Assembly (NCBI GenBank): GCA_023247445.1
Contig: JAHFGL010000028.1
Span: 1 to 32,000, forward strand
DNA: 32,000 bases
Origin: Candidatus Omnitrophota bacterium
Lineage (GTDB): Bacteria > Omnitrophota > Gorgyraeia > Zapsychrales > Zapsychraceae
Direction: 5' to 3'
Shown here: positions 5,810-22,469 of the stretch, piece after piece
How the letters are laid out: every line of letters begins with the position of its first letter
Numbering within the stretch: position 1 is the first letter of the stretch
Notes under the pieces: model-generated
Database searches by the model: none
The model's input: the letters and a program-made list of their open reading frames with translations, nothing else
Told to the model about the DNA's origin: nothing
Made by a program: the position numbers and the translations under genes

Positions 5810-5833
5810 ATTATATTTTCGAAAATTTATGTG

Positions 5834-5862
5834 TTGACATGGTTAGGGGCCTTTTGTATACT
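5834..5862 (+). promoter_or_regulatory. Sigma70-type promoter of the mraZ/dcw cluster
   Basis: A perfect -35 box TTGACA (5834-5839) is separated by exactly 17 bp from TATACT (5857-5862), which matches five of six -10 consensus bases. The expected transcription start is near 5869, giving a leader of about 67 nt before mraZ. It is the only near-consensus promoter seen upstream of the 16-kb cluster, so it probably drives much of it. Strength is inferred from consensus match only. Confidence 0.85.
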
Positions 5863-5870
5863 GGCACTCA

Positions 5871-5896
5871 AGGTGGGGGGAAGTGGAGTGAAGTGG
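5871..5896 (+). promoter_or_regulatory. Putative MraZ operator: three GTGG repeats at 10-bp period
   Basis: The sequence AGGTGG (5871), AAGTGG (5881) and AAGTGG (5891) places GTGG at 5873, 5883 and 5893, one helical turn apart, just after the predicted transcription start. A fourth weaker TGG follows at 5903, one base out of phase. MraZ proteins of E. coli and Mycoplasma are known to bind tandem TGGG- or AAAGTG-type repeats with 10-bp spacing near their own promoters. Position, spacing and sequence all fit autoregulation by the mraZ product encoded 40 nt downstream. Confidence 0.75.
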
Positions 5897-5935
5897 TTTA
5901 TCTGGTTTTGCTCCGCATTTTCCCTATTTATACAT

Positions 5936-6373
5936 ATGTTTTACGGTGAATATAGTCATAGCATTGATCGAAAAGGGCGGCTCATTCTCCCGTCTAAATT
6001 CCGCGAAGCTTGTAAAGAATCGGGGGTTGAACGATTTTTTATTACACGCGGCTTGGATAAATGTATTTTTATGTTTAGTTCAGATGAATGGCGAACTCAG
6101 GAGCAAAAGTTTAAGGGGATGTCATTTACTAAGCAGGAAACACGCAGTTTTAATCGTATGTTCTTTTCTGGAGCGGTCGATGTGGTTCCTGATAAGCAGG
6201 GGCGATTTATTATTCCTCCGTATCTTAAAGAATATGCCACTATCAAACGTGATACGGTGATCATTGGTATTTCGAATCGTATTGAGATTTGGGATAAAGA
6301 TATGTGGAGCAGCTTTTATAAAAATTCTAGCAATTCTTTTGAGCAGATTGCCGAAAATTTACTAAACCTATAA
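5936..6373 (+). CDS. mraZ: Transcriptional regulator MraZ
   Basis: A 145-residue DNA-binding protein of the AbrB/SpoVT-like double swapped-hairpin fold that represses its own dcw operon. The start ATG 5936 gives the family N-terminus MFYGEYSHSIDRKGRLILP; the upstream in-frame GTG at 5831 is rejected because it would translate the promoter. Two DNA-binding hairpin motifs are visible, DRKGRLILPSKFR (11-23) and DKQGRFIIPPYLKEYA (86-101). No Shine-Dalgarno precedes the start, and the leader instead holds the GTGG repeats. It is the first gene of the dcw cluster and is followed by rsmH, as in most bacteria. The protein probably forms a multimeric ring that contacts several repeats at once, as known for the family. 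Confidence 0.95.
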   Translation: MFYGEYSHSIDRKGRLILPSKFREACKESGVERFFITRGLDKCIFMFSSDEWRTQEQKFKGMSFTKQETRSFNRMFFSGAVDVVPDKQGRFIIPPYLKEYATIKRDTVIIGISNRIEIWDKDMWSSFYKNSSNSFEQIAENLLNL

Positions 6374-6430
6374 ATATAAAATTAAAAATTTATGATTGGG
6401 CCGGCGTCATTTATCAATTGTGAAGAAAAT

Positions 6431-7330
6431 ATGGAAAATCCTAAAACCCAACATATTCCTGTCATGTTAAATGAAGTGGTTGAATTATTGAAACCTTCGG
6501 GTAACGGCATTCATGTTGATTGTACTTTGGGTTTAGGAGGTCATGCGAAGGCGATTGGCAATTTGATAGGGCCCGGTGGCCGCCTTATTGGTATTGATCG
6601 TGATGGTCAAGCTCTTACTGTTGCGAAAGAAAATTTAAGTTCCTTAAGCCAACAATCTGAATTTGTCCATGATGATTTTCGTAATGTCGATAAAATTTTA
6701 GATACGTTAGGGATCCGCCAAATTGACACTTTACTCATGGATTTAGGAATCTCAAGTTTTCAATTGGATAATCCAGAAAGAGGATTTAGTATTCGAGCCG
6801 AAGGCCCGCTTGATATGCGAATGGATCAAGAGGCATACATTTCCGCCTACGATTTAATTAATACTCTATCAGAGAGAGAAATTTCCGCTATCTTAAAAGA
6901 TTTTGGGGAAGAGCGTTGGCACAACCGAATTGCGCGATATGTTGTGACAGAAAGAAATAAGGCCCCTATTTCAACGACCAAAGAATTAACTGATATTATT
7001 TTACGTGCGATCCCTTACAAAAATAAAAAGGAAAAAATTCATCCGGCGACCCGGACATTTCAAGCCATTCGAATTGCCGTCAATAGAGAGCTTGAATCTT
7101 TAGAGTTGGCATTAGGCAAATGTATTGATGCCCTTAAAATTGGTGGCCGTATTGCTGTTATTTCTTTTCATTCTTTAGAAGACAGAATTGTTAAGGATAA
7201 ATTTAGAGCCTTAGCCCAGTTAGGGCAATTAAAACTACTGACAAAAAAACCTTTAAGACCAACTGAAGAAGAGGCGGCGTATAACTCACGAGCCCGCAGT
7301 GCTCGTTTAAGAGTAGCCCAGAGGATTTAA
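6431..7330 (+). CDS. rsmH: 16S rRNA (cytosine(1402)-N(4))-methyltransferase RsmH (MraW)
   Basis: A 299-residue SAM-dependent methyltransferase that makes N4-methylcytosine at position 1402 of 16S rRNA. I prefer ATG 6431, giving MENPKTQHIPVMLNEVVELL, which matches the conserved HIPVMLxEV start; an earlier in-frame ATG at 6392 adds 13 atypical residues and has no Shine-Dalgarno. The SAM site is visible as HVDCTLGLGGHA (28-39) and GIDRDGQAL (54-62). Other conserved parts are LLMDLGISSFQLDNPERGFS (101-120), PLDMRMD (126-132), RTFQAIRIAVNREL (208-221) and VISFHSLEDRIVK (243-255). It lies between mraZ and the ftsL-like gene, whose ATG follows its stop codon immediately. Confidence 0.95.
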   Translation: MENPKTQHIPVMLNEVVELLKPSGNGIHVDCTLGLGGHAKAIGNLIGPGGRLIGIDRDGQALTVAKENLSSLSQQSEFVHDDFRNVDKILDTLGIRQIDTLLMDLGISSFQLDNPERGFSIRAEGPLDMRMDQEAYISAYDLINTLSEREISAILKDFGEERWHNRIARYVVTERNKAPISTTKELTDIILRAIPYKNKKEKIHPATRTFQAIRIAVNRELESLELALGKCIDALKIGGRIAVISFHSLEDRIVKDKFRALAQLGQLKLLTKKPLRPTEEEAAYNSRARSARLRVAQRI

Positions 7331-7714
7331 ATGCGATTAATAAATTTTTCAAAATGGATTTTTCTTTTTACCGGTTTAGCCTTAGTCTATATTCATATGC
7401 AAATGGAGATTATCGATTTGGCTTATCGAGCAAAATTTAAAGAGAAATTAATTAAAAAATTAATTGAGAAGAATAGCACCGTTAACTCTAGAATTTTGGC
7501 ATTAAAATCTTCTAATAACCTTGGCGTTAAAATGTTAGCCGAAGATAGAGGCATGGAATTTGGTGGGTCAAAAAATATTGTTCGAGCAACAACACCCCTG
7601 AAGACGACCGTTCGTCCACAATTAAGCAAGAGATCAGATACGGGTAATAGTTCTAATCCCCTTTTAAGTTTACTCTCAGGCAGCGCTCAAGCAGAAGCTA
7701 AAACAGGCGAATAA
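7331..7714 (+). CDS. ftsL: FtsL-like cell division protein
   Basis: A 127-residue single-pass membrane protein. A short cytoplasmic start (MRLINFSKW) is followed by a transmembrane segment at about 9-24, then a Lys/Glu/Leu-rich helical segment (about 36-75) ending in the EDRGMEF-like element that resembles the A-x-x-x-GM region of FtsL proteins. A low-complexity tail follows (Thr/Ser/Ala rich, 85-127). FtsL acts with FtsB and FtsQ to activate FtsW-FtsI at the septum. Sequence identity in this family is low, so the call relies mainly on topology and on position between rsmH and ftsI. The ATG immediately follows the rsmH stop, with GAGGA at 7321-7325 as ribosome binding site. Confidence 0.75.
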   Translation: MRLINFSKWIFLFTGLALVYIHMQMEIIDLAYRAKFKEKLIKKLIEKNSTVNSRILALKSSNNLGVKMLAEDRGMEFGGSKNIVRATTPLKTTVRPQLSKRSDTGNSSNPLLSLLSGSAQAEAKTGE

Positions 7715-7728
7715 TAAAGAAATGAGAA

Positions 7729-9408
7729 GTGTCAATTAGAAAATATAGTGTTAGATTTAGTTTAGTTTTTTTATTTCTTGTTACATGCCTTGTAGCATTT
7801 GTTGTTAAATTGTTTCTTATCCAAGTCTTTCGATCCTCTCATTTAGCCCACCTGGCCGATAAACAACATAGTCAACTTATTGAACTTGAACCCATCCGTG
7901 GAACAATTTATGATCGCAAGTTAAGACCGCTCGCGATTAACATTCCTGTCTTTTCTTTATTTGCCAATCCGCGTACCATGACCGATCATGATAAGGATTT
8001 AGCGGCTCAATATTTATCCCCATTAATTCACGTTGATCAGCAAAATATCCGAGATAATCTTAATAAAGATAAATATTTCGTTTGGCTTCAAAGAAAACTC
8101 CCAATGGAGTTAATAGAAAAGATTAAAGGACTTAAATTAAAAGGATTGGGATTAATTAATGAAAGCAAACGATTCTATCCTAATGGGAGTTTAGCTTCTC
8201 ATGTCATTGGATTTGCGGGAATCGATAATCACGGGTTAGAAGGATTAGAATTATTATATGAGAAAAATCTTAAAGGAGAATCTGGCTGGTCACAGATTCT
8301 TCGCGATGCCAGGCAACGCCAATTATCTATTGAGAAAAGTTATATTCCTCCACGAGATGGATTTCATGTTGTTTTAACAATCGATGAAACGATTCAATAC
8401 TTGGCGGAACGGGCCTTAGAAAAAGCATTTATTAAACATCATGCGAAATCGGCTAGTATTATTGTTATGGATGTTAAAACGGGAGAAATTTTGGCCTTGG
8501 CTAACAGACCGACCTATGATTTGGCACACGCCTCAAGCAGTCCAGCGGAGAATCGAACGAATCGAGCTATTTGCTATGTTTATGAGCCAGGTTCAGTTTT
8601 TAAGATTGTAACAGCCTCAGCCGCTTTAGAAGAAAAAGCATTTGTTGAAACAGATAAAATATATTGTGAAAATGGAGAATACCGAGTGGCTAATCATGTC
8701 CTTCATGATCATGAACGTCATGGGACATTAACGTTTCGTGGGGTCATCGAACAATCTAGCAATATCGGGACAACAAAAATTGCTCAAAAATTAGGCCCGG
8801 CGATAATTTATAAATATGCACAAAAATTTCGATTTGGAATGACAACCGGCATTGATTTACAAGGAGAGGTCCAAGGTGTGTTAAAGGCCCCTTCCCGGTG
8901 GTCCAAAACAACGATCGGTGCTATCCCCATTGGTCATGAAGTAACGGTTACCCCTATTCAATTAGTCGCGGCCCTTAATGCTATTGCTAATGACGGCATT
9001 TATATGCGTCCTTATATTGTCAAATATATTAAAGATAGTCATGATCAAATTATTAAATCTTTTGAACCCCAAGTGGTTGATCGCGTGATTAGTTCTGAAA
9101 CGGCTAAACGAGTTAAAGAAATCTTGGTGGGGGTCGTTGATAATGGAACGGGGAAACAGGCGGCCATTAAAGGAATGCGGATCGCCGGAAAAACAGGAAC
9201 GGCTCAAAAAGTAATCGGTAATGTTTATTCACACGATCAATTTTATGCCACATTTATTGGATTTGCTCCGGCAGATAATCCACGATTAGTTGCGGTGGTC
9301 GTTTTTGATGATCCGCATCCAAGCCATTTTGGTGGAACGGTTGCGGCCCCTGTCTTTAAAGAAGTGTTTGAAAGTGCGTTAAAATATTTAGAGAATTCAG
9401 GATCATAA
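7729..9408 (+). CDS. ftsI: Penicillin-binding protein, FtsI/PBP3-type septal transpeptidase
   Basis: A 559-residue class B penicillin-binding protein that crosslinks septal peptidoglycan with FtsW. The N-terminal signal anchor lies at about 11-33, followed by the pedestal motif EPIRGTIYDRKLRPLAIN (54-71). The transpeptidase domain has all three active-site motifs: SVFK with nucleophile Ser289 (YEPGSVFKIVTA), SSN (343-345) and KTG (488-490, AGKTGTAQ). No PASTA domains follow. The start is GTG 7729; the ATG at 7722 runs into a stop after five codons. The Shine-Dalgarno is weak. It sits between ftsL and murE as in canonical dcw clusters, and its length matches FtsI rather than the longer elongation PBP2. 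Confidence 0.94.
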   Translation: MSIRKYSVRFSLVFLFLVTCLVAFVVKLFLIQVFRSSHLAHLADKQHSQLIELEPIRGTIYDRKLRPLAINIPVFSLFANPRTMTDHDKDLAAQYLSPLIHVDQQNIRDNLNKDKYFVWLQRKLPMELIEKIKGLKLKGLGLINESKRFYPNGSLASHVIGFAGIDNHGLEGLELLYEKNLKGESGWSQILRDARQRQLSIEKSYIPPRDGFHVVLTIDETIQYLAERALEKAFIKHHAKSASIIVMDVKTGEILALANRPTYDLAHASSSPAENRTNRAICYVYEPGSVFKIVTASAALEEKAFVETDKIYCENGEYRVANHVLHDHERHGTLTFRGVIEQSSNIGTTKIAQKLGPAIIYKYAQKFRFGMTTGIDLQGEVQGVLKAPSRWSKTTIGAIPIGHEVTVTPIQLVAALNAIANDGIYMRPYIVKYIKDSHDQIIKSFEPQVVDRVISSETAKRVKEILVGVVDNGTGKQAAIKGMRIAGKTGTAQKVIGNVYSHDQFYATFIGFAPADNPRLVAVVVFDDPHPSHFGGTVAAPVFKEVFESALKYLENSGS

Positions 9409-9427
9409 TTTTGGAGCATAGAATGAC

Positions 9428-10888
9428 ATGATGCGCTTGGGGGAATTATTAAAAGATATTTATAGGGACGTTCAAAATATATCCTATCTCAATTGGGATA
9501 TTCAAGCTATTAGCTGTGATTCTCGTCGGGTTGAGAAAGATAGTTTATTTGTTGCGCTTAAGGGAACAAGTCTAGATGGAGCTAGCTTTATCGAAAGTGC
9601 TATTGATAAAGGCGCTCGCGTTATTGCCGTTGAGCGAAAAACCCAACTAAAAATAATCCACCCTGATGTTTGCTATTTATACGTTGATGATGCCCATCAA
9701 TTTTTGCGTGATCTGGCTAAACGTTTTTATGGAAATCCTTCAGCACTCGTTAAAACTATAGGCGTAACTGGAACCAATGGAAAAACAACTATCACCTATT
9801 TAGTTCAATCGATCTTTGCGCAAACTGGCCAAGAGTGTGCAATTATTGGAACGATCAATTATAAATTAGGAAACAAAACTATTCCTTCAGCAAATACCAC
9901 GCCGGGGCTTCTGGATAATCAACAATTTTTATGTGATTTAACTAAAGAAGGAATCGCTTATTGCGTGATGGAAGTTTCCTCCCATGCGCTCGATCAGGGG
10001 CGGATTGATTTGATTGATTTTAAAACAGCGGTTTTTACTAACTTGACCAGCGATCATCTAGATTATCATAAAACGCGAGAAAATTATTTCTTAGCCAAAT
10101 CTTTGTTATTTAAAAATTTATCAGCTCACGCTGCGGCCGTAATTAATGTTGATGATGAATTTGGTGTCCGATTAACAACGATGACCAAGGCTAAGGTTAT
10201 TACGTACGGCATTAAAAATAATGCTACCTTGCAAGCCAAAGATATTGAGCTTAATTTAAAAGGAACCAGATTTAAATTAATCATCGACAAAAAAGAAATC
10301 AGCATTCAAACAAAGTTATTTGGGATTCATAATGTTTATAATATCCTTGCTGCCATTGGTGTGGCGTATCAAGAAAATATTAGTTTTGAGGTGATTCAAA
10401 AAGGTATTGAGAAGTTGGCCTTTGTTAATGGTCGACTAGAACGGGTTGATTGTGGTCAAGACTTTGCGGTTTTTATTGATTATGCCCATACTGAAGATGC
10501 TTTGATCAATGTCCTGTCAACAATACGTCAAACAAGTAAAGCAAAAATTATTTTGGTCTTTGGTTGTGGCGGTGATCGGGATAAGACTAAACGTCCCAAA
10601 ATGGGGAGTGTCGCTTGCGCTATGGCAGACTTCTCTATTATAACCAGCGACAACCCACGCAGTGAAGATCCCGAAATGATCATCAAAGAAATTGTTCAAG
10701 GATTTAAGAAGAATAATTATACTGTTGTTGTCAACCGCGAAGAAGCCATTGATAAGGCTTTAAAGATGGCGACCTCAGGCGATATCGTTCTTATCGCCGG
10801 CAAAGGCCATGAAACCTACCAAATTTTTAAAGATAAAACAATTCATTTTGATGAACGCGAAGTCGTTCGTAAAATTCTGGCATGTTAA
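9428..10888 (+). CDS. murE: UDP-MurNAc-tripeptide synthetase MurE (meso-diaminopimelate-adding)
   Basis: A 486-residue cytoplasmic ATP-dependent ligase that adds the third residue to UDP-MurNAc-L-Ala-D-Glu. The ATP loop is GVTGTNGKTTITYL (112-125); YFLAKSLLF contains Lys224, which should be the carbamylated lysine. The motif SDNPRSEDP (407-415) marks enzymes that use meso-diaminopimelate rather than lysine, so mDAP-type peptidoglycan is predicted. The C-terminal GKGHETYQ (458-465) is also family typical. Two ATG codons occur in tandem (9428 and 9431), with GGAG at 9413-9416 as a moderately distant ribosome binding site. The last 7 nt overlap murF, indicating coupled translation. Confidence 0.95.
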   Translation: MMRLGELLKDIYRDVQNISYLNWDIQAISCDSRRVEKDSLFVALKGTSLDGASFIESAIDKGARVIAVERKTQLKIIHPDVCYLYVDDAHQFLRDLAKRFYGNPSALVKTIGVTGTNGKTTITYLVQSIFAQTGQECAIIGTINYKLGNKTIPSANTTPGLLDNQQFLCDLTKEGIAYCVMEVSSHALDQGRIDLIDFKTAVFTNLTSDHLDYHKTRENYFLAKSLLFKNLSAHAAAVINVDDEFGVRLTTMTKAKVITYGIKNNATLQAKDIELNLKGTRFKLIIDKKEISIQTKLFGIHNVYNILAAIGVAYQENISFEVIQKGIEKLAFVNGRLERVDCGQDFAVFIDYAHTEDALINVLSTIRQTSKAKIILVFGCGGDRDKTKRPKMGSVACAMADFSIITSDNPRSEDPEMIIKEIVQGFKKNNYTVVVNREEAIDKALKMATSGDIVLIAGKGHETYQIFKDKTIHFDEREVVRKILAC

Positions 10889-12246
10889 AAATTAAAGAAA
10901 TTTTAAAAGCTACGGGTGGCAAGCTGATTACTGGGAAAGATTCTCTGGTTATTAAACGGGTTTTAATTGATTCGCGCTCGATTCAATCCGGAGATTTATT
11001 TATTGCGATTAAGGGTGAGCGTTTGGATGGACATAAGTTTATCGCACAGGCCATAGAGAAGGGGGCAGCAGCTGTTATCGTATCTCAAAAGATTTCTTGT
11101 CCTGATCACGTCGCGGTTATTTTGGTTAGGGATACAACCAAGGCTTTGGGCGAGATTGCCCATTTTTATCGTGACAAGTTTTCCCTTCCCATTATTGCGA
11201 TTACAGGAAGTGCTGGCAAAACAACGACCAAAGAAATGATTGCCGCGGTTCTTTCCTGCCGATTTAATGTGCTTAAGAATTTTAAAACAGAAAATAATCA
11301 ATTTGGCGTGCCACTCACGTTATTAAAACTTAATAAATCCTACGACGTTGCCGTTGTTGAGTTAGGAACGAATCGTTTTGGTGATATTCCTTGGTTGGCA
11401 AAAATAACTAATCCCACCATCGCAGTTTTTACCAACGTTGGAGAATCTCATCTTGAGCGACTAAAAACTCCAGCTGGTGTATTTCGTGAAAAGTTTCAGA
11501 TGGTTAAATTTATGCCTAAAAGTGGCCGCGTCATTTTTAATGAAGATGATCGCTATTTGAAAAAAATTGCGCAAAAATCTATACCCCAGAAGAAAATTAG
11601 CTATGCTATTAATACAGCTGCTTTATGTAAGGCTTCGGACGTCAAACGTACAGAGCGTAATCAAATTGAATTTAAAGTTAAGGGTAGGAAATTTACTCTT
11701 AACACACCTTTTGCGCACAATGTTTACAATGCCTTAGCCGCCATTAGTTGTGGCCTTATATTTAAAATTAGCCTGCCACAAATGGTCAAGACATTGAGTT
11801 CTTTTGGATTTGCCGATGGTCGTCAAGAAATTAAAAAAATTGGCAAGCTCATGTTGATTAATGACACCTATAATTCGAATCCCGTTTCGCTGCGCAGTGC
11901 CATCGATACGTTAAGTTCTTTAAAAATAGATAGAAGAAAAATTTTGGTTTGTGCCGATATGCTTGAATTGGGCCAACATTCTAAACGACTTCATGCTTTA
12001 ATCGGAGAAAATATTGCCCAATCAACCATTGATGCTGTTTTTACAATGGGCCCTTATGCAAAAGATATTCATTTAGGGATTAGAAAGTTTAAAAACAATA
12101 TTCAAACATATCATGAATCCAATCTTGAGGCGCTTAATCATAGACTGAAAGATTTTTGTCAGCCAGGAGATGTTTTGCTCATTAAAGGATCCCGCGGAAT
12201 GCATCTGGAGAAAACCGTCGAGTTTTTAGAGAAAAATTTTAATTAA
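10882..12246 (+). CDS. murF: UDP-MurNAc-tripeptide--D-Ala-D-Ala ligase MurF
   Basis: A 454-residue Mur ligase that adds D-Ala-D-Ala to UDP-MurNAc-tripeptide, completing the cytoplasmic pentapeptide precursor. The N-terminal substrate domain shows IDSRSIQSGDLFIAIKGERL with DGHKFI, the ATP-binding loop is AITGSAGKTTTKEMI (106-120), and the C-terminal domain contains the MurF-specific INDTYNSNP (Asn327 to Pro334). VELGTNRFGDI and NVGESHLERL are also typical of MurF. Its ATG lies within the end of murE, and mraY follows after a 22-nt gap. Its substrate D-Ala-D-Ala is made by the ddl product encoded later in the cluster. Confidence 0.95.
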   Translation: MLKIKEILKATGGKLITGKDSLVIKRVLIDSRSIQSGDLFIAIKGERLDGHKFIAQAIEKGAAAVIVSQKISCPDHVAVILVRDTTKALGEIAHFYRDKFSLPIIAITGSAGKTTTKEMIAAVLSCRFNVLKNFKTENNQFGVPLTLLKLNKSYDVAVVELGTNRFGDIPWLAKITNPTIAVFTNVGESHLERLKTPAGVFREKFQMVKFMPKSGRVIFNEDDRYLKKIAQKSIPQKKISYAINTAALCKASDVKRTERNQIEFKVKGRKFTLNTPFAHNVYNALAAISCGLIFKISLPQMVKTLSSFGFADGRQEIKKIGKLMLINDTYNSNPVSLRSAIDTLSSLKIDRRKILVCADMLELGQHSKRLHALIGENIAQSTIDAVFTMGPYAKDIHLGIRKFKNNIQTYHESNLEALNHRLKDFCQPGDVLLIKGSRGMHLEKTVEFLEKNFN

Positions 12247-12268
12247 TATAGATTTATAAAGGATCATT

Positions 12269-13360
12269 ATGTTTTACTTTTTATCTAGCTTGCGCAATGA
12301 TTTTTTCGGATTTAATATTTTTAAATACATCACCTTTAGAACAGGGATGGCCGCGATGACGACGTTTCTGTTGTGCATTATTTTCGGACCATTTCTTATT
12401 AAGAAACTAAAGGAAATGAAAATTCGTGAAATTGCTAAAAGAGAGGACTGCCCTGATCTAGATAAATTTCAACATTCAAAAGAAGGAACTCCCACGATGG
12501 GAGGCCTTTTTATTATTGGAAGCATTGTTTTCTCGATTCTGTTGTGGGCTGATTTATCCAATCGATTTGTTCTGTTGACACTATTTACCTGCATTTGGTT
12601 GGCCATTTTAGGTTTTATCGATGATTACGCAAAATTAACAAAGAAGATTAAAGGCAAGCGCGGACTTTCCAAACGAGCAAAATTATTTTGGGAAATTCTT
12701 TTGGGATGTATCGTTGGAGCCTTTATTTACTTTCATTCCGATAATTCAACAAAGTTAGATGTTCCATTTCTAAAGAATTTGATAATCGATTTGGGAATTC
12801 TTTATATCCCCTTTGTGGCCATCATTGTTATCGGCACATCAAATGCAGTTAATTTAACCGATGGATTAGATGGCTTGGCGATTGGTTGTGTTCTTATCGT
12901 CAGCTTAGCCTTAGCGGCATTAAGTTATATCAGCGGTAACATTAATTTCAGTGATTATCTTTTTATTCCATTTGTTGAGGGAGCTGGTGAATTGACCGTT
13001 GTTTGTGCAGCCGTGATCGGTGCAAGCTTGGGATTTTTATGGTTTAATTGTCATCCCGCGACGGTATTTATGGGGGATGTCGGTTCACTACCATTAGGTG
13101 GAACATTAGGGGTCATTGCTGTTCTTATTAAAAAAGAACTTCTTCTTGTTATTTTGGGAGGAATATTTGTTTTGGAAGCTATGTCGGTTATTTTACAAGT
13201 GACATCATTTAAAACCACCGGTAAGCGCATCTTCAAAATGTCTCCGTTTCATCATCATTTACAACTATCCGGTTGGAATGAATCGAAAATAATTATTCGT
13301 TTCTGGATCATCGCGATAATTTTAGCTCTCCTTACTTTAACGACACTCAAATTGCGTTAA
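12269..13360 (+). CDS. mraY: Phospho-N-acetylmuramoyl-pentapeptide transferase MraY
   Basis: A 363-residue polytopic inner-membrane enzyme that transfers phospho-MurNAc-pentapeptide to undecaprenyl phosphate, making lipid I. Catalytic motifs seen are GTPTMGGLF (73-81), FIDDYAKLTKK (117-126, Asp118 and Asp119), NAVNLTDGLDGLAIG (192-206), VFMGDVGSLPLGG (catalytic Asp270) and the HHH motif MSPFHHHLQLSGW. About ten hydrophobic segments fit the family topology. AAAGGA at 12258-12263 provides a good ribosome binding site five bases before ATG 12269. It is separated from murD by four bases. Length is typical for the family. Confidence 0.96.
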   Translation: MFYFLSSLRNDFFGFNIFKYITFRTGMAAMTTFLLCIIFGPFLIKKLKEMKIREIAKREDCPDLDKFQHSKEGTPTMGGLFIIGSIVFSILLWADLSNRFVLLTLFTCIWLAILGFIDDYAKLTKKIKGKRGLSKRAKLFWEILLGCIVGAFIYFHSDNSTKLDVPFLKNLIIDLGILYIPFVAIIVIGTSNAVNLTDGLDGLAIGCVLIVSLALAALSYISGNINFSDYLFIPFVEGAGELTVVCAAVIGASLGFLWFNCHPATVFMGDVGSLPLGGTLGVIAVLIKKELLLVILGGIFVLEAMSVILQVTSFKTTGKRIFKMSPFHHHLQLSGWNESKIIIRFWIIAIILALLTLTTLKLR

Positions 13361-13364
13361 GAAT

Positions 13365-14684
13365 ATGGTTAATTTAAAGAATAAAAAAATAACAATTCTG
13401 GGTGGGAAAAGAAGCGGGATGGCTTTAGCGCGTTTGATCATACGCTTAGGAGGTATCGCTAAAATATCTGAACAGGCCTCAGAGAGTTCTTTGCCTGAAG
13501 ATTTTCGCAATTGGGCGATCGCCCGAAATGTTGCTTTAGAATTTAATGGACATACCCAAGCCTTTATTGAAGAGAGCGATTTGGTTGTTTTGAGTCCTGG
13601 CATTCGATTTAATGCCCCGCCAGTTAAGTGGGCGCATGATAGAGGTATTGCTGTTTTGGGAGAGATTGAATTTGCGGCGCAGTTTTGTAACAAACCCATC
13701 ATTGCCGTCACGGGAAGCAATGGGAAAACAACCGTTGTAACTCTGATTAATAAAGTTTTACAAAAAGCTGGTTATAAATCGTGTTTGTGTGGCAATGTGG
13801 GAATGCCGTTTTCAGAATTTGTTTTGGAATCCAACAAAAAAGATTTCTTTGTTCTTGAGATTAGTTCTTTTCAATTAGAATCTCTGCTTGATTTGAATTC
13901 TTCATTTCGGGGAAATCATAGTAATGGCGTATTGCATTTTCAGGGCTTTAAGCCTTTTATTGCTGTTGTTTTAAATTTTAGTCAGAATCATTTAGATCGG
14001 CACAAAGATTTGGAAGAATATTTTCAGGCTAAAATGAGAATATTTCTTAATCAAACCTCTGAAGATTTTGCCGTCTTAAATTATCAAGATGAGCGGTTAA
14101 AAGAATATTCGTCACAACTTGAATCAAAAGTAATCTTTTTTAATTCAACTCAAAATCAAACGGCCAAAGAGATAAAGAACCCTAATCATTCTGTTGTTAT
14201 TAAAGTAGCCAAGATCTTGGGAATCGAAGAATCTGTTTGCCAGAATGTTTTTACCACATTTGAAGGTGTTGAACATCGCTTAGAGGTGGTACGATCCCTG
14301 GATGGTGTCAAATATATTAACGATTCTAAGGCCACAACCGCAGAGTCAGGGCGGTGGGCATTAAAAAGTATTGACCAGCCTATTGTGATGATCTGTGGTG
14401 GACGAGATAAGAATATTGACTTTACGGTTTTAAAAGATTTGGTTAAATCAAAAGTAAAAAGAATGTTGGTGATTGGTGAAGCCAAGGCAAAACTTTCACA
14501 AGCCTTTGAAGGTGTCGTGCCGGTTGAAGAGTGTAATAGTTTAGAAGATGCTGTTTTGCGGGCAAAAGAAATTGCCCATCAAGGAGATTGTGTTGTTTTG
14601 ACGCCGATGTGCGCGAGCTTTGATATGTTTCTTGATTACGAAGATCGTGGTCGAAAATTTAAAGATATCGTTAACAAACTTTAA
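13365..14684 (+). CDS. murD: UDP-MurNAc-L-alanine--D-glutamate ligase MurD
   Basis: A 439-residue Mur ligase that adds D-Glu to UDP-MurNAc-L-Ala. The N-terminal Rossmann-like domain begins KKITILGGKRSGMALARL; the ATP loop is AVTGSNGKTTVVTL (114-127); EISSFQLES (165-173) and NHLDRH (208-213) flank the active site, and ICGGRDKNIDF and LTPMCASFDMF lie in the C-terminal domain. Two points are odd. Compared with E. coli MurD, about 20 extra residues (roughly 174-194) separate SSFQLE from the next strand, and the usual DHLDRH reads NHLDRH. Frame and downstream motifs remain intact, so the enzyme should be functional. It follows mraY by four bases and precedes ftsW. Confidence 0.94.
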   Translation: MVNLKNKKITILGGKRSGMALARLIIRLGGIAKISEQASESSLPEDFRNWAIARNVALEFNGHTQAFIEESDLVVLSPGIRFNAPPVKWAHDRGIAVLGEIEFAAQFCNKPIIAVTGSNGKTTVVTLINKVLQKAGYKSCLCGNVGMPFSEFVLESNKKDFFVLEISSFQLESLLDLNSSFRGNHSNGVLHFQGFKPFIAVVLNFSQNHLDRHKDLEEYFQAKMRIFLNQTSEDFAVLNYQDERLKEYSSQLESKVIFFNSTQNQTAKEIKNPNHSVVIKVAKILGIEESVCQNVFTTFEGVEHRLEVVRSLDGVKYINDSKATTAESGRWALKSIDQPIVMICGGRDKNIDFTVLKDLVKSKVKRMLVIGEAKAKLSQAFEGVVPVEECNSLEDAVLRAKEIAHQGDCVVLTPMCASFDMFLDYEDRGRKFKDIVNKL

Positions 14685-14703
14685 AAGGTATTCATTTTTA
14701 TTT

Positions 14704-15795
14704 ATGCGTGATATTCGAATTTCGATTGCAACGATTGTGATTCTTTTGATTAGCATTGGGCTGGTGATGATCTATAGCGCCAGTGGCATTTATGCGTTGC
14801 AAGAGATGGGGGACGCTACCTATTTCTTGAATCGTCATTTCATGTTTTTGATTATTGGAAGTTTTGCGACATTTGCCGTCATGAGTTTCGATTATCGTGA
14901 ATTACGTAAATATGTCAAACCACTTCTTGTTATAACGATCATCTTGCTTGTTTTTGTTTTGATCCCGGGCATCGGGAAATCAACTTATGGAGCCCGACGT
15001 TGGTTTAGGGTTGGGCCGATTAACTTTCAACCATCGGAGCTGGCTAAATTAACGGTATTAATTTATACAGCTGATTTTTTGGCACGAAAGAAATCAAAGA
15101 TTGGAAATTTTGTCGAAGGATTTCTTCCCTTAGTGATGATTCTTGGCATAGTTTCACTATTGATTGTCAAGCAGCCGGACTTAGGAAACACAGTCCTTAT
15201 TGCGAGTGTCATGCTCATTATGATGTTTATCGCTGGAGCCAATACCCTACATATTGGAATTTTGGGATTATTATCGTTACCGGTTTTATATTATTTAATC
15301 GCCCGTGTCGCTTATCGTTTAAAAAGAATTATTGCTTTTTTGGATCCCTGGCAAGACAGCCAAGGGATTGGTTTTCAGTTGTCTCAATCACAGATCGCTT
15401 TGGGTTCTGGCGGTTTATTAGGCGTTGGGCTCGGTCATAGCGTTCAAAAATTATTTTTTCTTCCCGCCGCACATACGGATTTCATTTTATCGATTATTGG
15501 GGAAGAGTTTGGATTAGTCGGAACGGTTTCGGTTGTTTTATTATTTGCGGCTTTCATTTGGCAGGGAGCACGTATTGCCAAACGTACAACGGATCCTTTT
15601 GGCTATTATTTAGCGATTGGTATCGTGGCGATGCTAGGTCTTCAGGCGGTGGTTAATATTGGTGTGAGTATTGGTGCTTTTCCGACGAAAGGATTGCCAC
15701 TTCCTTTTATTAGTTACGGTGGATCGGCTTTGATTTTTAATTTGGTAGCGGTGGGTCTCCTTCTTAATATTTCTCGTATTCAGGATCTGCATTGA
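14704..15795 (+). CDS. ftsW: Septal peptidoglycan polymerase FtsW (SEDS family)
   Basis: A 363-residue polytopic SEDS glycosyltransferase that polymerises lipid II at the septum with FtsI. The start ATG 14704 gives MRDIRISIATIVILLISIGLV; an upstream in-frame ATG at 14620 would read the end of murD in another frame. Typical motifs are VMIYSASG, STYGARRWFRVGPINFQPSE followed by LAK, KQPDLGNTVLI, SQIALGSGGLLGVGLGHS and the terminal PFISYGGSALIFNLVAVGLL. The N-terminal MIYSAS and the GLPLPFISYGGS motif fit FtsW and RodA alike, but the dcw position between murD and murG supports FtsW. The Shine-Dalgarno is weak. A perfect inverted repeat spans its stop codon region. Confidence 0.93.
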   Translation: MRDIRISIATIVILLISIGLVMIYSASGIYALQEMGDATYFLNRHFMFLIIGSFATFAVMSFDYRELRKYVKPLLVITIILLVFVLIPGIGKSTYGARRWFRVGPINFQPSELAKLTVLIYTADFLARKKSKIGNFVEGFLPLVMILGIVSLLIVKQPDLGNTVLIASVMLIMMFIAGANTLHIGILGLLSLPVLYYLIARVAYRLKRIIAFLDPWQDSQGIGFQLSQSQIALGSGGLLGVGLGHSVQKLFFLPAAHTDFILSIIGEEFGLVGTVSVVLLFAAFIWQGARIAKRTTDPFGYYLAIGIVAMLGLQAVVNIGVSIGAFPTKGLPLPFISYGGSALIFNLVAVGLLLNISRIQDLH

Positions 15796-15823: not shown

Positions 15824-15868
15824 TGGCCTTCGCGTTGATGAAAATTCTGGAAATTGAGTCGATTATTT

Positions 15869-16984
15869 ATGCGGAAGCCTGTAGTGGACAAGAGCAATCA
15901 AACAATAGTGATCGCAACCGGTGGATCGGGGGGACATTTATTTCCCGCTATTGCTGTTGCTGAGATTTTACGAAATGATGGTTATTCTGAGATTTTATTT
16001 TTAGGTTCATTTGGCATCGGCCTTGAGAAATTAGAACAAAAAGGATTTGCTTGTCATAATCTTGCGGCACGTGGATTAAGTTTTAAAAATCCAATCATTG
16101 CAATCTCTTCCATTATTTCGATCATGAGGGCTGCCGTTTCATCGTTATTTCTTCTTAGAAAGATTAAACCACAGACTGTTATTGGTTTTGGCGGATATGG
16201 TGCTTTTCCGGTCGTCGCTGCTGCTATTTTTTTAAAATACCCAACCATGATTCATGAACAGAATGTCCTTCCAGGACGGGCCAATCATCTTTTGGCTAAC
16301 TTTGTTAATAAAATAGCGATTAGCTTTAAACAAAGTGAACACTATTTTAATATTAGCAAAACGGTTTTAACGGGATGCCCATCGCATATCACAAAAAAAG
16401 AAGTTTTAAGATCCGAAACTTTAAAGAGATTCCAATTACAAGATAATAAATTTACTATTTTTGTTTTTGGTGGGAGTCAAGGCAGCCATCGTGTTAATGA
16501 AATTTTTCTAGAGACCGCAAAGATTCTGAAACAAGAAATAGATTTTCAGGTGATTCATGCGTGTGGAAAGAAAGATTATCCACAGCTTAAAATCGAGTAT
16601 GAAAAATCCGGTATAAACGTCGCCCTTTTTGATTTCTTGGATAAAATTGATGAGGCCTATGCGGTTAGTGATCTTGTGATTAGTCGTGCGGGAGCTGGGA
16701 CGGTGACGGAACTTGCGATGTGTGAGCGACCAGCTCTTTTAATTCCGTATCCGTATGCGCAAGCTCACCAAAAAGAAAATGCGGCTGTTTTATCCGCAAT
16801 TAAGGCCGCAGCAATAATTGATGAAAATGATTTATCTGCCGAGAAGCTCAAAGAAGAGATTTTTAAAATAAAAAATGCAGGGATTCTTTCTAAAGAGGTT
16901 CGACAGAAACTTCAAACCATTTATTTTCCTGATGCGGCCAAACGAATAGCCAGAGAGATCGTAAAACTCATTAATGAAATTTAG
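15869..16984 (+). CDS. murG: Lipid II synthase MurG (UDP-GlcNAc transferase)
   Basis: A GT-B glycosyltransferase of about 372 residues that adds GlcNAc to lipid I on the inner face of the membrane, forming lipid II. The donor and lipid loops are clear: IATGGSGGHLFPAIAVAE (15-32), HEQNVLPGRAN, FVFGGSQGSHRVNEIF, SRAGAGTVTELAMCERPALL and IPYPYAQAHQKENA. The start is uncertain. ATG 15869 is used here; TTG 15854 upstream and GTG 15884 downstream are in frame, and the last has GGAAG at 15873-15877 in good position. Any of these keeps the glycine loop intact. The 3' end overlaps the following peptidase gene by 11 nt. Confidence 0.93.
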   Translation: MRKPVVDKSNQTIVIATGGSGGHLFPAIAVAEILRNDGYSEILFLGSFGIGLEKLEQKGFACHNLAARGLSFKNPIIAISSIISIMRAAVSSLFLLRKIKPQTVIGFGGYGAFPVVAAAIFLKYPTMIHEQNVLPGRANHLLANFVNKIAISFKQSEHYFNISKTVLTGCPSHITKKEVLRSETLKRFQLQDNKFTIFVFGGSQGSHRVNEIFLETAKILKQEIDFQVIHACGKKDYPQLKIEYEKSGINVALFDFLDKIDEAYAVSDLVISRAGAGTVTELAMCERPALLIPYPYAQAHQKENAAVLSAIKAAAIIDENDLSAEKLKEEIFKIKNAGILSKEVRQKLQTIYFPDAAKRIAREIVKLINEI

Positions 16985-17747
16985 AATATTACTAATTATT
17001 TTTATTTTTCTTTGTTTTCCTTCCCAAGGATTTTCTCAAGAGTGGAAGACGCATCAGGGACGACATTTTATTGTTTACTATAAACAAGCCCCACAAGATT
17101 TTGTTAAAAACGTTGAACAAATGGCAGAATCTTATTATGATGAGATCTCAGATAATTTTAGATTCACTCGAGATAAGGCCTGGAGTCAAGACGAGCGCGC
17201 GAAGATTTACATTTATAATGATGCGAACGATTACGTCAAAAATGCCAAGCAAGCGCATTGGTCTCATGGCGCGGCTTCTCCGCATGACAAAACAATTCGG
17301 ACATTCCCAGCAGCTCACGGATTCTTTGATTCAACACTTCCGCATGAACTGGGGCATATTATTTTTCATGAATGTGTTGGTTTTAAAAGTAACGTCCCCA
17401 ATTGGTTTGAAGAAGGGGTTGCCATGTATCAAGAGAAGGCCAAACGTTGGGGAGCCCATCACGCGGTTAAAAAAGCTTTAGAGAATAAAAGTTTTAAATC
17501 TTTGGCAGAATTAAGCTCAACAACTTTATACAGTAATAGTGATCCTAAGCTTGTTGAGATTTTTTATGCGGAATCAGCGAGCGTTGTTTATTTTATGATT
17601 AGTGAGTTTGGGAATTATCGATTCTTTAATTTGTGCCATAAACTCGAAGAAGGAATGCCTTTCAACAAAGCTTTAGAAGCCGCGTATGGGCGATTTAAAA
17701 ATGTCGATGAATTAAATAGAGCTTGGGTTAAATATCTAAAAGAATGA
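16974..17747 (+). CDS. Predicted secreted zinc metallopeptidase (peptidase MA-like, HEXXH)
   Basis: A 257-residue protein with a signal peptide (about 1-21, ending GFS before QEW). The central motif LPHELGHIIFHE (122-133) gives zinc ligands His124 and His128 with catalytic Glu125. NWFEEGVAMYQE (143-154) supplies the downstream Glu (146 or 147) expected in gluzincins of the peptidase MA/M1-like group. The N-terminal part has a secreted substrate-domain look (HFIVYYKQAPQDFVKNVEQ), and the C-terminal part is helical. It is predicted to act in the periplasm; its substrate is unknown. The gene overlaps murG by 11 nt and murC by 4 nt (ATGA), so it is cotranslated with peptidoglycan genes. Canonical dcw clusters do not carry it here. 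Confidence 0.85.
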   Translation: MKFRILLIIFIFLCFPSQGFSQEWKTHQGRHFIVYYKQAPQDFVKNVEQMAESYYDEISDNFRFTRDKAWSQDERAKIYIYNDANDYVKNAKQAHWSHGAASPHDKTIRTFPAAHGFFDSTLPHELGHIIFHECVGFKSNVPNWFEEGVAMYQEKAKRWGAHHAVKKALENKSFKSLAELSSTTLYSNSDPKLVEIFYAESASVVYFMISEFGNYRFFNLCHKLEEGMPFNKALEAAYGRFKNVDELNRAWVKYLKE

Positions 17748-19132
17748 AAAAACATTATCATTTTATTGGCATTGGCGGTATTGGTATGGGAGCCTTGGCC
17801 TCACTTGTTATGGCTCAAGGCCATCACGCCAGCGGATCAGATCTTAAAGACAGCGCCATGACACAGCGGCTTAAAGAAGAAGGCGCGAAAATCTTTATTG
17901 GGCATGATGCAAGAAATGTTGAGGATGCGGATTTTGTTATCTTTTCTTCCGCCGTTGACGAAAATAACCCTGAATTAAAAACTGCAACAGCAAGAAATAT
18001 CCCTATTTTAAGACGAGCTCAATTGTTGTCACAACTGATGCAAGGCCATATTGGAATCACCGTTGCTGGAGCACATGGCAAAACGACAACAACATCCATG
18101 ATTTCCAATTTGCTTATTAATGCGGGTTTGCAACCCACAACCGCGGTGGGAGGAATTATTAATGGAACAACCAATAATGCACGGCTAGGAGCCGGCCGCC
18201 ATTTTGTGGCTGAGGTTGATGAGAGCGATGGTTCATTCTTATATTTTTCTCCACAATATTCTGTTATTACCAACATCGATTTTGAGCATCTTGATTACTA
18301 TCATAATTGGGAAAATATTATTAAAGCTTATCGAGAGTTTATTTGGAAAACCACCGTCGATGGCGTTGTGATTGGTTTTGGGGATGATGAGCGGCTGATG
18401 GCTTTACTTAAGGCAAGTAAACGCAACTTTGAGACATATGGATTTACAAAAGATCATGCCGTCCATGCGCTTAATATACAGTTTGATCATTTTTCATCGC
18501 GGTTTGATTGCATTGTCCACGGGAAGAATATGGGGCCAGTGGTTTTAAATGTTCCTGGTCAGCACAACATTGCCAATGCGATGGCCTGTATCAGTCTTGG
18601 CTTAAAATTAAATATTGATTTTAATGTTATCGTCCAGAATTTGCGCGAATATAAAGGGGTCAATCGACGTTTTCAAACAATTGGAACTGTTGATGAGGTT
18701 TTGGTTATTGATGACTACGGACATCATCCGACGGAAATTTTAGCAACATTATCGGCGGCCCAAAAGGTTAAAAAGAATCGTTTGGTGGTCGCTTTTCAAC
18801 CACATCGCTATACGCGATTAAAATCTTTATTAAAAGAATTTGCGCAGAGTTTAACTCAGTGCGATTATTTGATTGTCACCGATGTCTATGCCGCTAGTGA
18901 AAAACCAATTGAGGGGATAACGGGGGCAAGATTAAGCGAAGAGGTCCAGAAAATTTCAACGAAGCCGGTGGTATATTTAGAAAAAGATAAGATAATGGAG
19001 CATCTTTTAAAAATTGTTAAACCAGGTGATTTGGTCATGACTTTGGGGGCTGGAGATATTACGAAAATTTCATATGAATTGGTAGAAGCTTTGAAAGGGG
19101 CAAGGGTCATGGGGCATGGGAGTAGAAAATAA
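17744..19132 (+). CDS. murC: UDP-N-acetylmuramate--L-alanine ligase MurC
   Basis: A 462-residue Mur ligase that starts the peptide stem by adding L-Ala to UDP-MurNAc. The N-terminal dinucleotide-like fold begins HFIGIGGIGMGALASL, the ATP loop is VAGAHGKTTTTSMI (107-120), and the C-terminal domain contains IDDYGHHPTEI and AFQPHRYTRL, both diagnostic of MurC. The start ATG overlaps the peptidase stop as ATGA. The last residues (GARVMGHGSRK) come from a G-rich direct repeat and look like a tail added to the usual end. In most clusters murB follows to supply the UDP-MurNAc substrate; here ddl follows directly. Confidence 0.95.
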   Translation: MKKHYHFIGIGGIGMGALASLVMAQGHHASGSDLKDSAMTQRLKEEGAKIFIGHDARNVEDADFVIFSSAVDENNPELKTATARNIPILRRAQLLSQLMQGHIGITVAGAHGKTTTTSMISNLLINAGLQPTTAVGGIINGTTNNARLGAGRHFVAEVDESDGSFLYFSPQYSVITNIDFEHLDYYHNWENIIKAYREFIWKTTVDGVVIGFGDDERLMALLKASKRNFETYGFTKDHAVHALNIQFDHFSSRFDCIVHGKNMGPVVLNVPGQHNIANAMACISLGLKLNIDFNVIVQNLREYKGVNRRFQTIGTVDEVLVIDDYGHHPTEILATLSAAQKVKKNRLVVAFQPHRYTRLKSLLKEFAQSLTQCDYLIVTDVYAASEKPIEGITGARLSEEVQKISTKPVVYLEKDKIMEHLLKIVKPGDLVMTLGAGDITKISYELVEALKGARVMGHGSRK

Positions 19133-19169: not shown

Positions 19170-20147
19170 ATGCCAATAAACACTAAACAATTCGGGCGTA
19201 TCGGAGTTTTGATGGGAGGTTATTCCTCAGAGAGAGCAATTTCTCTTAAATCAGGCACGGCTATCTTTGAAGCGCTGAAAGCTGAGCACTGTGACGTCGT
19301 GGCGTTAGATATTCAAGATCAAGAAGAACAAAAGATTATTGATCTTATTAAAAAAGCAGATATTGATATAGCTTTTATTGCCTTGCACGGACAATTAGGC
19401 GAAGATGGAACCATTCAATCGATCTTAGAGAAATTAGAAATTCCATATCCTGGATCAGGTGTTGACGCCAGTCGATTATCCATTAATAAAGTCTTGGCAC
19501 AAAATTTGTTTAAGAAAAATAATATTCAAATTGCGCCATTCGTTAGTTTAGTGAAAAAGAATTCAGCGGATATTGATGAGGTTATTAACCAATTAAAATC
19601 TTTTCCTTTGGTTGTTAAACCAGCTTGTGAAGGGTCAAGTATCGGTGTAACGTTGGTTCGTAACAAAAAAGAATTAATAAAAGCCATTGATGTCGCTTGG
19701 CAGTATGGACCACAGGTGTTGGTTGAAAAATATATTAAAGGAAGAGAATTAACTGTTGGCATCCTTAATCAAAAAGCTTTATGTGTTATTGAAATTTGCG
19801 CGAAAGGTGATTTTTTTGATTTTGCAGCCAAGTATCAAAGTGGGTTGACGGAATATATTTTTCCAGCGCAGATTCCCCAACAAACAGCTTTACGTATTCA
19901 AAAGATGGCTCTTGATGCTCACACCGCGCTTGGGTGTGAAGATCTTTCCCGTGTTGATTTTATTTTAAGTGACGATGGGACGCCGTATGTTTTAGAAATT
20001 AATACAATCCCTGGGTTTACTTCAACGAGCTTGTTGCCCAAGGCAGCGAAAGAAGCAGGTTTAAACTTTAATCAACTCTGTTTTAAATTGGTAGAATTAG
20101 CTTATGGCAAAAAGAAAAAAAGTACAACTATCCCCGTCAGCCGCTAA
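19170..20147 (+). CDS. ddl: D-alanine--D-alanine ligase Ddl
   Basis: A 325-residue ATP-grasp enzyme that joins two D-alanines for use by MurF. Visible motifs are GVLMGGYSSERAISLKSG (12-29), IALHGQLGEDGTIQ, GSGVDASRLSINK, VVKPACEGSSIGVTLV and the active-site end VLEINTIPGFTSTSLLPKAA. AGGA at 19159-19162 precedes the ATG at a good distance. The gene overlaps ftsQ by 44 nt, so its basic tail (KKKKSTTIPVSR) is encoded within the ftsQ start. The ddl-ftsQ-ftsA order is canonical for dcw clusters; the absence of murB upstream is not. Confidence 0.95.
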   Translation: MPINTKQFGRIGVLMGGYSSERAISLKSGTAIFEALKAEHCDVVALDIQDQEEQKIIDLIKKADIDIAFIALHGQLGEDGTIQSILEKLEIPYPGSGVDASRLSINKVLAQNLFKKNNIQIAPFVSLVKKNSADIDEVINQLKSFPLVVKPACEGSSIGVTLVRNKKELIKAIDVAWQYGPQVLVEKYIKGRELTVGILNQKALCVIEICAKGDFFDFAAKYQSGLTEYIFPAQIPQQTALRIQKMALDAHTALGCEDLSRVDFILSDDGTPYVLEINTIPGFTSTSLLPKAAKEAGLNFNQLCFKLVELAYGKKKKSTTIPVSR

Positions 20148-20880
20148 AGGACTAATCATTTGTATTGTCGTCCCGGTTTTGACTTTCTTTATTTTTAGTA
20201 AATTCATGCATATCATCATGCAATCCGATTATTTTAAAGTTCAGTCGATTGTTATTGAAGATCCCAACTTGCAATTTATTGATCAACAGGATTTGACGCG
20301 ATTAAGAGGTCGAAGTATTTTTACGGTTAATCTAAAGGATATTCAAAAAAAGCTCAATATGAAGTATCCGCAAGTAGCCGGACTGCGAATTGTCCGCAAT
20401 TTCCCCAATCAGATCATGATTGTTGCCAGGAAGCGGATTCCCTATACTCAGGTTCGGTTAGGGAATCGTATTGTAATGTTGGATTTAAGAGGGGTTGTAG
20501 TGGCCACGACAAATAAACCCGATAACAATCTGCCATTAATATTAGGTGTCAAAACAAATGGCCAAAGAATATTTTTAGGCCAACCGTTTTTAGGTCAAGA
20601 TGTGCAAGCAGCTCTTAAAGTTCTTAAAATATTTCAAATCAACAAAGGATTGTCAGCGTATCGTATTGCACGGATTGATGTAAGTAATTTGTCGAATATC
20701 GAATTTTATTTAACGAATAATCTTAAAATTATATTTGATTGGGATAAAATTGAAGAGAAAATAAATACGTTAAGTCTCATGCTATCTCAAGGACAGTTAA
20801 AACTAAATGAAATCACTTACATTGATCTAAGATTTAAAGAACCTATCATAGGACAAAATAATGCTAAAAAAGATGATTAG
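20104..20880 (+). CDS. ftsQ: Cell division protein FtsQ
   Basis: A 258-residue bitopic membrane protein of the divisome that links FtsB/FtsL to the septal synthase. A short basic cytoplasmic tail (MAKRKKVQLSPSAAKG) precedes a transmembrane helix at about 16-38, followed by a POTRA-type domain (about 43-112: FKVQSIVIEDP, LRGRSIFTVNLKDIQKKL, RIVRNFPNQIMIVARKR). The FtsQ beta domain follows (YTQVRLGNRIVMLDLRGVVV, then FYLTNNLKIIF and ITYIDLRFKEPII near the end). The gene overlaps ddl by 44 nt and ftsA by 20 nt. Overall identity is low, as usual for FtsQ, but domain order and position support the call. Confidence 0.9.
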   Translation: MAKRKKVQLSPSAAKGLIICIVVPVLTFFIFSKFMHIIMQSDYFKVQSIVIEDPNLQFIDQQDLTRLRGRSIFTVNLKDIQKKLNMKYPQVAGLRIVRNFPNQIMIVARKRIPYTQVRLGNRIVMLDLRGVVVATTNKPDNNLPLILGVKTNGQRIFLGQPFLGQDVQAALKVLKIFQINKGLSAYRIARIDVSNLSNIEFYLTNNLKIIFDWDKIEEKINTLSLMLSQGQLKLNEITYIDLRFKEPIIGQNNAKKDD

Positions 20881-22102
20881 TGAAAAGGTTTATTGCGGGC
20901 TTGATATAGGCGCTCAAAAAATCAAGGCGGCTATCTTAAAAGTTCACGATGCTGGGCAAACACAATTAATGGCTGTGGCCGAGAATAAAACACAAGGCTT
21001 GAAAGATTTGTCAGTGCGCGATCTGGGGGAGTTGTCAGAATGTATTCATACAACGATCAGCCAAGCGGCCCAAGAAGCAAACATAAAGATTAAGGAAGTT
21101 CAGTTGGGCATTGGTGGTGAGTTTGTTGAGCTCCGAGAAACCAGCGCACTTATTCCCTTGGTCGATCGTGGAAACAAAATTATTACACAGCAGGATATTA
21201 AAAAGGTCAATCATCAAGCTAATTTGCTTGGGTTGAAAATGGATGAACAGACGTTGCACTCAATTGCTCAATATTATTTGGTTGATGATGTTAATACCGC
21301 TCTTAATCCAGTGGGCCTTTATGGACGAAAGTTGGGTGTAGAGGCACTTCTTATCGTAACGAACATTAATCGTGTGCGGAATATAACCCATGCGGTTAAT
21401 CATGCGGGGTATGATGTCGGTCATTTATATTTTGGGACTTATGCGGCCTCAGAAGTTGTTTTCTCCAAAGAGCAAAAACAAAAGGGCTGTGTTTTACTCG
21501 ATGTTGGGGCGGCTGTTACAAGCATTTTAATTTTTAAAGAAGGCGTTTTGAAATATTTATCAAAAATAGATATCGGCGGCGACCATTTTACGCGGCGTAT
21601 TGTTGAGAAACTTAATTTGTCATTTGATTTAGCGGAAGAACTCAAACAATCGTATGCGGTTGCGCTCAGTACAGATCAACATCAAAAAGAAGATATCTTG
21701 CTTAAGCAAGAAAGTAATTATGTTCCTGTTAAACGAGAAGTCCTTTATCAAGCGATTGAAGGAGAAATTTTAAATTTTATTCAAGGCATTGAACTGGCTC
21801 TAAAAACATCAGGTTTCCGTGATCAAATAAACGACGGCATTACTATGATCGGAGCTGGTGCGCTTCTGACAGGATTCATCGAACGTATTGAAGGAGATCT
21901 TCATCTTGCGGTCAAGCTAGGGAAAGTCAATATTTCTTCTAGAAAGACTTTAAATCAAACCGGCAATTTTGCCTCTTGTATTGGATTGGCCCAACACGCC
22001 TATAAACAGTCATCATGCTCTTTGCTTTCTTCTGAAGATCTTCTGAACTGGAGAAAAAGTTTAAGTGGTAAGATTAAAGAATTATATGAGGAATATTTTT
22101 AG
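20861..22102 (+). CDS. ftsA: Cell division protein FtsA
   Basis: A 413-residue actin-fold ATPase that tethers FtsZ filaments to the membrane and recruits later division proteins. The phosphate-1 motif is YCGLDIGAQKIKAAIL (11-26), phosphate-2 is VLLDVGAAVTSILIF (211-225), and the adenosine motif is MIGAGALLTGF. The C-terminal WRKSLSGKIKELYEEYF could form the amphipathic membrane-targeting helix of FtsA. ATG 20861 has AGGAC nearby; an in-frame ATG at 20873 is the alternative. It overlaps ftsQ by 20 nt. No ftsZ follows; instead a small convergent gene begins 19 nt downstream, so the dcw cluster ends here. Confidence 0.92.
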   Translation: MLKKMISEKVYCGLDIGAQKIKAAILKVHDAGQTQLMAVAENKTQGLKDLSVRDLGELSECIHTTISQAAQEANIKIKEVQLGIGGEFVELRETSALIPLVDRGNKIITQQDIKKVNHQANLLGLKMDEQTLHSIAQYYLVDDVNTALNPVGLYGRKLGVEALLIVTNINRVRNITHAVNHAGYDVGHLYFGTYAASEVVFSKEQKQKGCVLLDVGAAVTSILIFKEGVLKYLSKIDIGGDHFTRRIVEKLNLSFDLAEELKQSYAVALSTDQHQKEDILLKQESNYVPVKREVLYQAIEGEILNFIQGIELALKTSGFRDQINDGITMIGAGALLTGFIERIEGDLHLAVKLGKVNISSRKTLNQTGNFASCIGLAQHAYKQSSCSLLSSEDLLNWRKSLSGKIKELYEEYF

Positions 22103-22121
22103 TAGTTCGACTTGGCTCTCA

Positions 22122-22469
22122 CTAGTCTTTGGTGGGAGGGCGTCGCGTCAGGTTATAGCCAATGTCTTTGAGGATAGTCGTCAACCGTTGCATGGTGTTA
22201 AACATAAACAGCAGCCAGAACGAATTAAGCAGTAGAAGAAACACAATGATAGTTGTATTAATCGAGAACGCCATGAGCATCCGTTCTTGAATATTCGTTT
22301 TGGAAACGGCAACACTGGTATCGATAATATTAAAAAGATTAGCGAACCAAAACACAAAAACAACGACTAAAACAATTTGGAAAAAAGTGAAATAAAAATG
22401 TCGGATCAGCCATTTCGCTGTCAAATTATCCCAATGACGAACCTTATTCATGAAGTCTTTAAACGGCAT
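22122..22469 (-). CDS. Small membrane protein, two transmembrane helices, unknown function
   Basis: A 115-residue protein on the minus strand that I do not recognise. On that strand AAGGAG lies five bases before the ATG at 22469, which fixes the start and excludes longer readings to 22499. The N-terminus (MPFKDFMNKVRHWDN) is polar and possibly amphipathic; transmembrane helices lie at about 26-47 and 68-92, the second followed by MQRLTTILKDIGYNLTRRPP, a basic cytoplasmic tail. A TAAAAT element upstream on the minus strand could be a -10 box, but no good -35 is seen. It converges on ftsA and diverges from the next gene, so it is its own transcription unit. Confidence 0.7.
   Translation of the reverse strand: MPFKDFMNKVRHWDNLTAKWLIRHFYFTFFQIVLVVVFVFWFANLFNIIDTSVAVSKTNIQERMLMAFSINTTIIVFLLLLNSFWLLFMFNTMQRLTTILKDIGYNLTRRPPTKD

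Follow-up and report, generated by a model that had tools for sequence, protein, structure and literature searches.

A gene for a small, probably exported peptidase of the Peptidase_MA_2 family lies between murG and murC in the dcw cluster of a Candidatus Omnitrophota genome, and the same slot is filled in most genomes of its family and order and in 11 families of the rest of its class. The DNA analysed, referred to as the window, comprises 32,000 nucleotides of contig JAHFGL010000028.1 (assembly GCA_023247445.1). The products encoded on either side of the peptidase gene were identified by Pfam as FtsW, MurG, MurC, Ddl, FtsQ and FtsA, confirming an earlier reading made before any database search (the sequence-only reading), which had placed the gene inside the peptidoglycan operon. 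The overlaps that it had described, of 11 nt with murG (ORF end at 16984) and of 4 nt (ATGA) with murC (start at 17744), were likewise found (Table 1). A 127-aa ORF at the position of ftsL was without a Pfam match. The window's own genome contained a single copy of the peptidase. The dcw cluster is among the most conserved bacterial operons, and we know of no PF13485 (Peptidase_MA_2) member in a dcw slot. Among the papers searched, coverage of which was incomplete, none linked PF13485 to dcw and none reported a protease in the murG-murC slot. About 6.6 kb 3' of the peptidase gene, the window also encodes a 1934-aa bacterial alpha-2-macroglobulin, a protease trap (24388-30192), whose N-terminus is TPR-like and which carries the thioester motif CVEQ at residue 1419.

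Table 1. Peptidase gene, its predicted functional residues and the surrounding dcw genes, in window coordinates.
Feature	Position	Strand	Basis or remark
mraZ, rsmH/mraW, 127-aa ORF, ftsI-type PBP, murE, murF, mraY, murD, ftsW	5831..15795	+	Pfam; upstream dcw
murG	15854..16984	+	Pfam; shares 11 nt with peptidase gene
Probably exported Peptidase_MA_2 gluzincin, 257 aa (lineage A)	16974..17747	+	ATG start; ORF, Pfam, alignment, AF2
Hydrophobic N-terminal signal or anchor, about residues 1-21 (approximate boundary)	16974..17036	+	Sequence, family hydropathy, AF2 helix 2-13
HELGH, residues 124-128	17343..17357	+	Predicted zinc ligands H124 and H128, predicted catalytic E125; H, E and H invariant in 45/45
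E147, predicted third zinc ligand (HEXXH-x18-E)	17412..17414	+	Invariant in 45/45
Y198, candidate transition-state-stabilising Tyr	17565..17567	+	Putative role; invariant in 45 orthologues
murC	17744..19132	+	Pfam; shares 4 nt (ATGA) with peptidase gene
ddl, ftsQ, ftsA	19170..22102	+	Pfam; downstream dcw

The window protein matched PF13485, a family defined by sequence only, over residues 73-256 with 72.6 bits against a gathering score of 32.4 (E 5e-20), and the same profile was matched by all 45 aligned orthologues of its lineage, designated hereafter lineage A. Since the gathering score was exceeded and the motif residues were invariant in the 45 orthologues, a chance occurrence of HEXXH could be ruled out. 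The gluzincin-like active site proposed in the sequence-only reading appears intact, as judged by the invariance of H124, E125, H128 and E147 in the alignment, which also rules out a degenerate pseudo-protease. E147 is the second Glu of an EEG motif whose first Glu, E146, varied among the 45 orthologues. Of 63 A proteins, 52 had the spacing HEXXH-x18-E, whereas the others had 17 or 19 residues between HEXXH and Glu. The window protein resembles PF13485 members in profile match, HEXXH and downstream Glu, and the combination of HEXXH with a conserved Glu on what is predicted to be the following helix points to a gluzincin. Further positions invariant in the 45 orthologues were W24, W70, W96, GFFD (116-119) and C221. 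The latter (17634-17636) is a lone invariant cysteine in a predicted exported protein; an intramolecular disulfide is unlikely because most A proteins carry a single Cys after residue 25.

A hydrophobic N-terminus was common to the whole family by hydropathy and suggests a Sec-type signal or anchor, consistent with the signal peptide claimed earlier and making export probable. A lipoprotein is unlikely, as a lipobox-like motif was present in 1 of 63 A proteins.

An AF2 model of lineage A calculated from the alignment (mean pLDDT 90.3, pTM 0.84) assigned HEXXH to a helix spanning residues 117-135 and E147 to one spanning 143-152. With both helices kept and zinc peptidases as the nearest matches in fold, the predicted structure agrees with the zinc site that the earlier reading had expected. 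The nearest structures identified by Foldseek were the peptidase domains of clostridial collagenases (M9: ColT, ColH, ColG), with ColT (4ar8) the best match (E 1.9e-7, TM 0.62 by query length), followed by M1 aminopeptidases (LTA4H, ERAP1). A sequence search of the PDB with the window protein gave no convincing relative (best E 0.26). The window protein differs from the M9 collagenases in having just 257 aa and in sharing 12-17% identity with them, and membership of M9 was rejected, as Peptidase_M9 was not matched by the window protein and was matched at E 0.001 or better by only one of 45 orthologues (E 0.0008). The spacing from HEXXH to Glu is longer in ColG. M1 aminopeptidases have the spacing HEXXH-x18-E, which is that of the A proteins; the 105 proteins of lineages A, B and C (the latter two are described below) all lacked the GXMEN motif, however, arguing against M1 membership and an exopeptidase. 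M48 proteases of the BepA, YcaL and LoiP type are periplasmic HEXXH enzymes that process or clear envelope proteins; their likeness to the peptidase is one of working mode only, and Peptidase_M48 was not among the Pfam matches of the window protein or its orthologues. Flagellinolysin (NF033876) gave a weak local match of 27.6 bits against a cut-off of 205 bits, and with the flagellin parts absent, membership of this family was rejected too.

The occupancy of the murG-murC slot was compared across Omnitrophota. The family and order were represented by 55 genomes, the window's own included, and 46 of these carried lineage A, called at E 1e-60 or better. In all 45 loci inspected from these 46 orthologues (the copy of genome G003 was left out) murC abutted the peptidase gene, and murG was visible upstream in 44; one locus (L004) starts near a contig edge. 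Three genomes of the same order had an empty slot with murG followed directly by murC, and four with neither lineage A nor a detectable murC were left out of slot scoring. In the rest of the class, the slot was scored by comparing the positions of A and murC, an empty slot being one with no profile match beside murC. Of 171 assessable genomes, 61 had a filled slot and 110 an empty one, and three further genomes were left unscored; among 22 of the empty-slot loci that were inspected, murG lay beside murC in all but one. In the other classes of the phylum the peptidase was found in none of 30 loci, 28 of which had murG and murC adjacent, and PF13485 was not found in 14 control genomes outside Omnitrophota. 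A scan of contigs, with a reach of close relatives, matched just one Omnitrophica contig (L032). The insertion is thus conserved and not confined to this genome: besides the 45 loci inspected in the order, the slot is filled in 61 other genomes of the class, and these many filled slots rule out a one-genome insertion or an assembly artefact. As for a dcw-cluster gene, the slot is kept over a clade, though many relatives are without the peptidase; the empty-slot relatives indicate that it is dispensable in some lineages.

Mapped on a MurC tree, the state of the slot changed 9 times, compared with 38.8 times when labels were shuffled. This fits one old murG-murC insertion and several clean losses, the number and order of events being tentative because deep branches of that tree are weak. 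Mean p-distances of A (0.514) and MurC (0.510) indicated equal divergence, and the two distance matrices were correlated (r 0.57; as high in 0 of 2000 permutations). The dcw operon is conserved, yet a probably exported protease keeps one slot in it across an uncultured class at a level of conservation like that of MurC.

Two paralogous lineages were identified. Lineage B proteins of relatives were 28-41% identical to the window protein, all 19 matched PF13485, and they formed one clade except for a long-branch sequence (L050). An AF2 model of lineage B (pLDDT 88.5) likewise had the endopeptidase domains of clostridial collagenases as its nearest folds. The B gene is kept just as firmly as A in an operon of its own, between the T2SSF (gspF) and T2SSG (gspG) genes of a T2SS/type-IV-pilus-like operon that also holds T2SSE, N-methylated pseudopilins, T2SSK and a PilM/PilN protein and adjoins ATP-synthase alpha/beta-family genes (F-type-ATPase cluster). 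At four loci from other classes the gene after B was not gspG. This operon is similar to the Omnitrophota cluster of type-4a-pilus and symbiotic F-ATPase genes described in PMC10066038, the shared features being ATPase alpha/beta-type genes beside T2SSE, T2SSF, T2SSG, pseudopilins and PilM/PilN; the word 'peptidase' is absent from the main text of that paper. Lineage C was a single clade (support 100/98), most of its genes being flanked by giant ORFs (about 2300-2550 aa) on one side and by the ATPase cluster on the other. Beside one C gene, the giant ORF (2282 aa) had no Pfam match, and among six C loci most also had a conserved membrane protein without a Pfam match and a response-regulator-like gene nearby. 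Two genes of one genus (g59) sat in the A slot yet grouped with C (96/84), so replacement within the murG-murC slot may have occurred. In the set of 55 family and order genomes, A was accompanied by a further copy (mostly B) in 27 and was the sole lineage in 19, whereas 8 had just a B-like copy and 1 had neither. In the window's own genome gspF is next to gspG and B is absent, indicating that this machine does not require the peptidase family.

Our preferred reading, held tentatively at a little under even chances, is that the window gene encodes a small periplasmic gluzincin endopeptidase of the Peptidase_MA_2 family that acts as an accessory enzyme on a protein of the envelope. An accessory protease of envelope building is suggested by the presence of the family in the operons of two envelope machines, by probable export, by the invariant active site and by strong conservation. 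The peptidase would be co-translated with MurG and MurC, so that its amount would follow peptidoglycan-precursor synthesis, and it would work in the periplasm or at the outer face of the inner membrane, where it would most likely cut a protein substrate of the growing envelope in maturation or quality control. This step would be accessory and not indispensable; a core indispensable role is counted against by the many relatives in which murG is followed directly by murC. Sister lineage B may serve the secretion/pilus machine of its own operon in a similar way, and its position points to an envelope role wider than division alone. A bolder version would make A a dedicated maturation protease of wall synthesis and division and B one of the secretion/pilus machine, each operon having its own copy, in a phylum that apparently divides without FtsZ; this is unlikely. 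On the preferred reading the peptidase offers a specific case in which a protease may control how the envelope is built, and the empty-slot relatives are natural controls for it.

Somewhat unlikely, although the most probable of the alternatives, is a periplasmic protease with a general clean-up or nutrient function, which entered the cluster once and stayed for steady operon expression with no functional tie to the wall. The many clean losses, the absence of the gene from most of the class and the gain and loss of A and B independently of each other in the family and order set would suit such a passenger, but two lineages each locked to one envelope-operon slot, with MurC-like conservation, are more than random landing predicts. 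Unlikely to a greater degree is a protease exported beyond the cell to act on the surfaces of a host or prey. The pilus-type and F-type-ATPase surroundings of B and the location of C between giant ORFs and ATPase genes are in keeping with it, as such clusters and giant ORFs have been tied to symbiosis or predation (Seymour et al., 2023; PMC10066038), and so is a fold nearest to collagenases. Lineage A, however, sits in dcw and not in a pilus cluster, and it is a single small domain without binding modules. Operon position would also accommodate a peptidoglycan hydrolase cutting stem peptides or cross-links during wall growth, but a wall-binding domain is absent and the known peptidoglycan-peptidase families were unmatched in Pfam, making this improbable. 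The known murein peptidases (M15, M23, M14, NlpC/P60) have other folds.

The peptidase-bearing dcw loci are also without ftsZ. In the window ftsZ did not follow ftsA (22103-23167), and a search with PF00091 (FtsZ/tubulin) gave no match in 283 of 285 Omnitrophota genomes. Of the 222 with completeness of 90% or more and contamination of 5% or less, 221 gave no match, compared with detection in 13 of 14 control genomes. A 2016 review had listed FtsZ in 1/3 Omnitrophica (PMC5147048). In the dcw loci inspected ftsA was retained, and at 12 of 32 ftsA loci the next genes resembled yggS and proC, as named by eye. These two genes commonly come after ftsZ. A dedicated divisome protease of an FtsZ-independent division system, to which the company of ftsA and ftsQ and the lack of detectable FtsZ might point, is the least probable reading, since FtsZ is missing to the same extent from genomes with and without the peptidase; on these grounds a coupling between the peptidase and the loss of FtsZ was also ruled out. 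Two genomes encoded divergent proteins of the tubulin family (L261:1015-2295 in G214 and L262:999-2258 in G054), which have Lys-rich N-termini and show a weak TubZ-like match at the C-terminus; a third tubulin match, also in G054 (L260), comes from a different contig and may be a contaminant. In the window, ftsA is followed by two small ORFs that contain hydrophobic segments (22595-22873 and 22885-23178); relatives of the first, with 4 in the cluster, occupy the same position in some related genomes.
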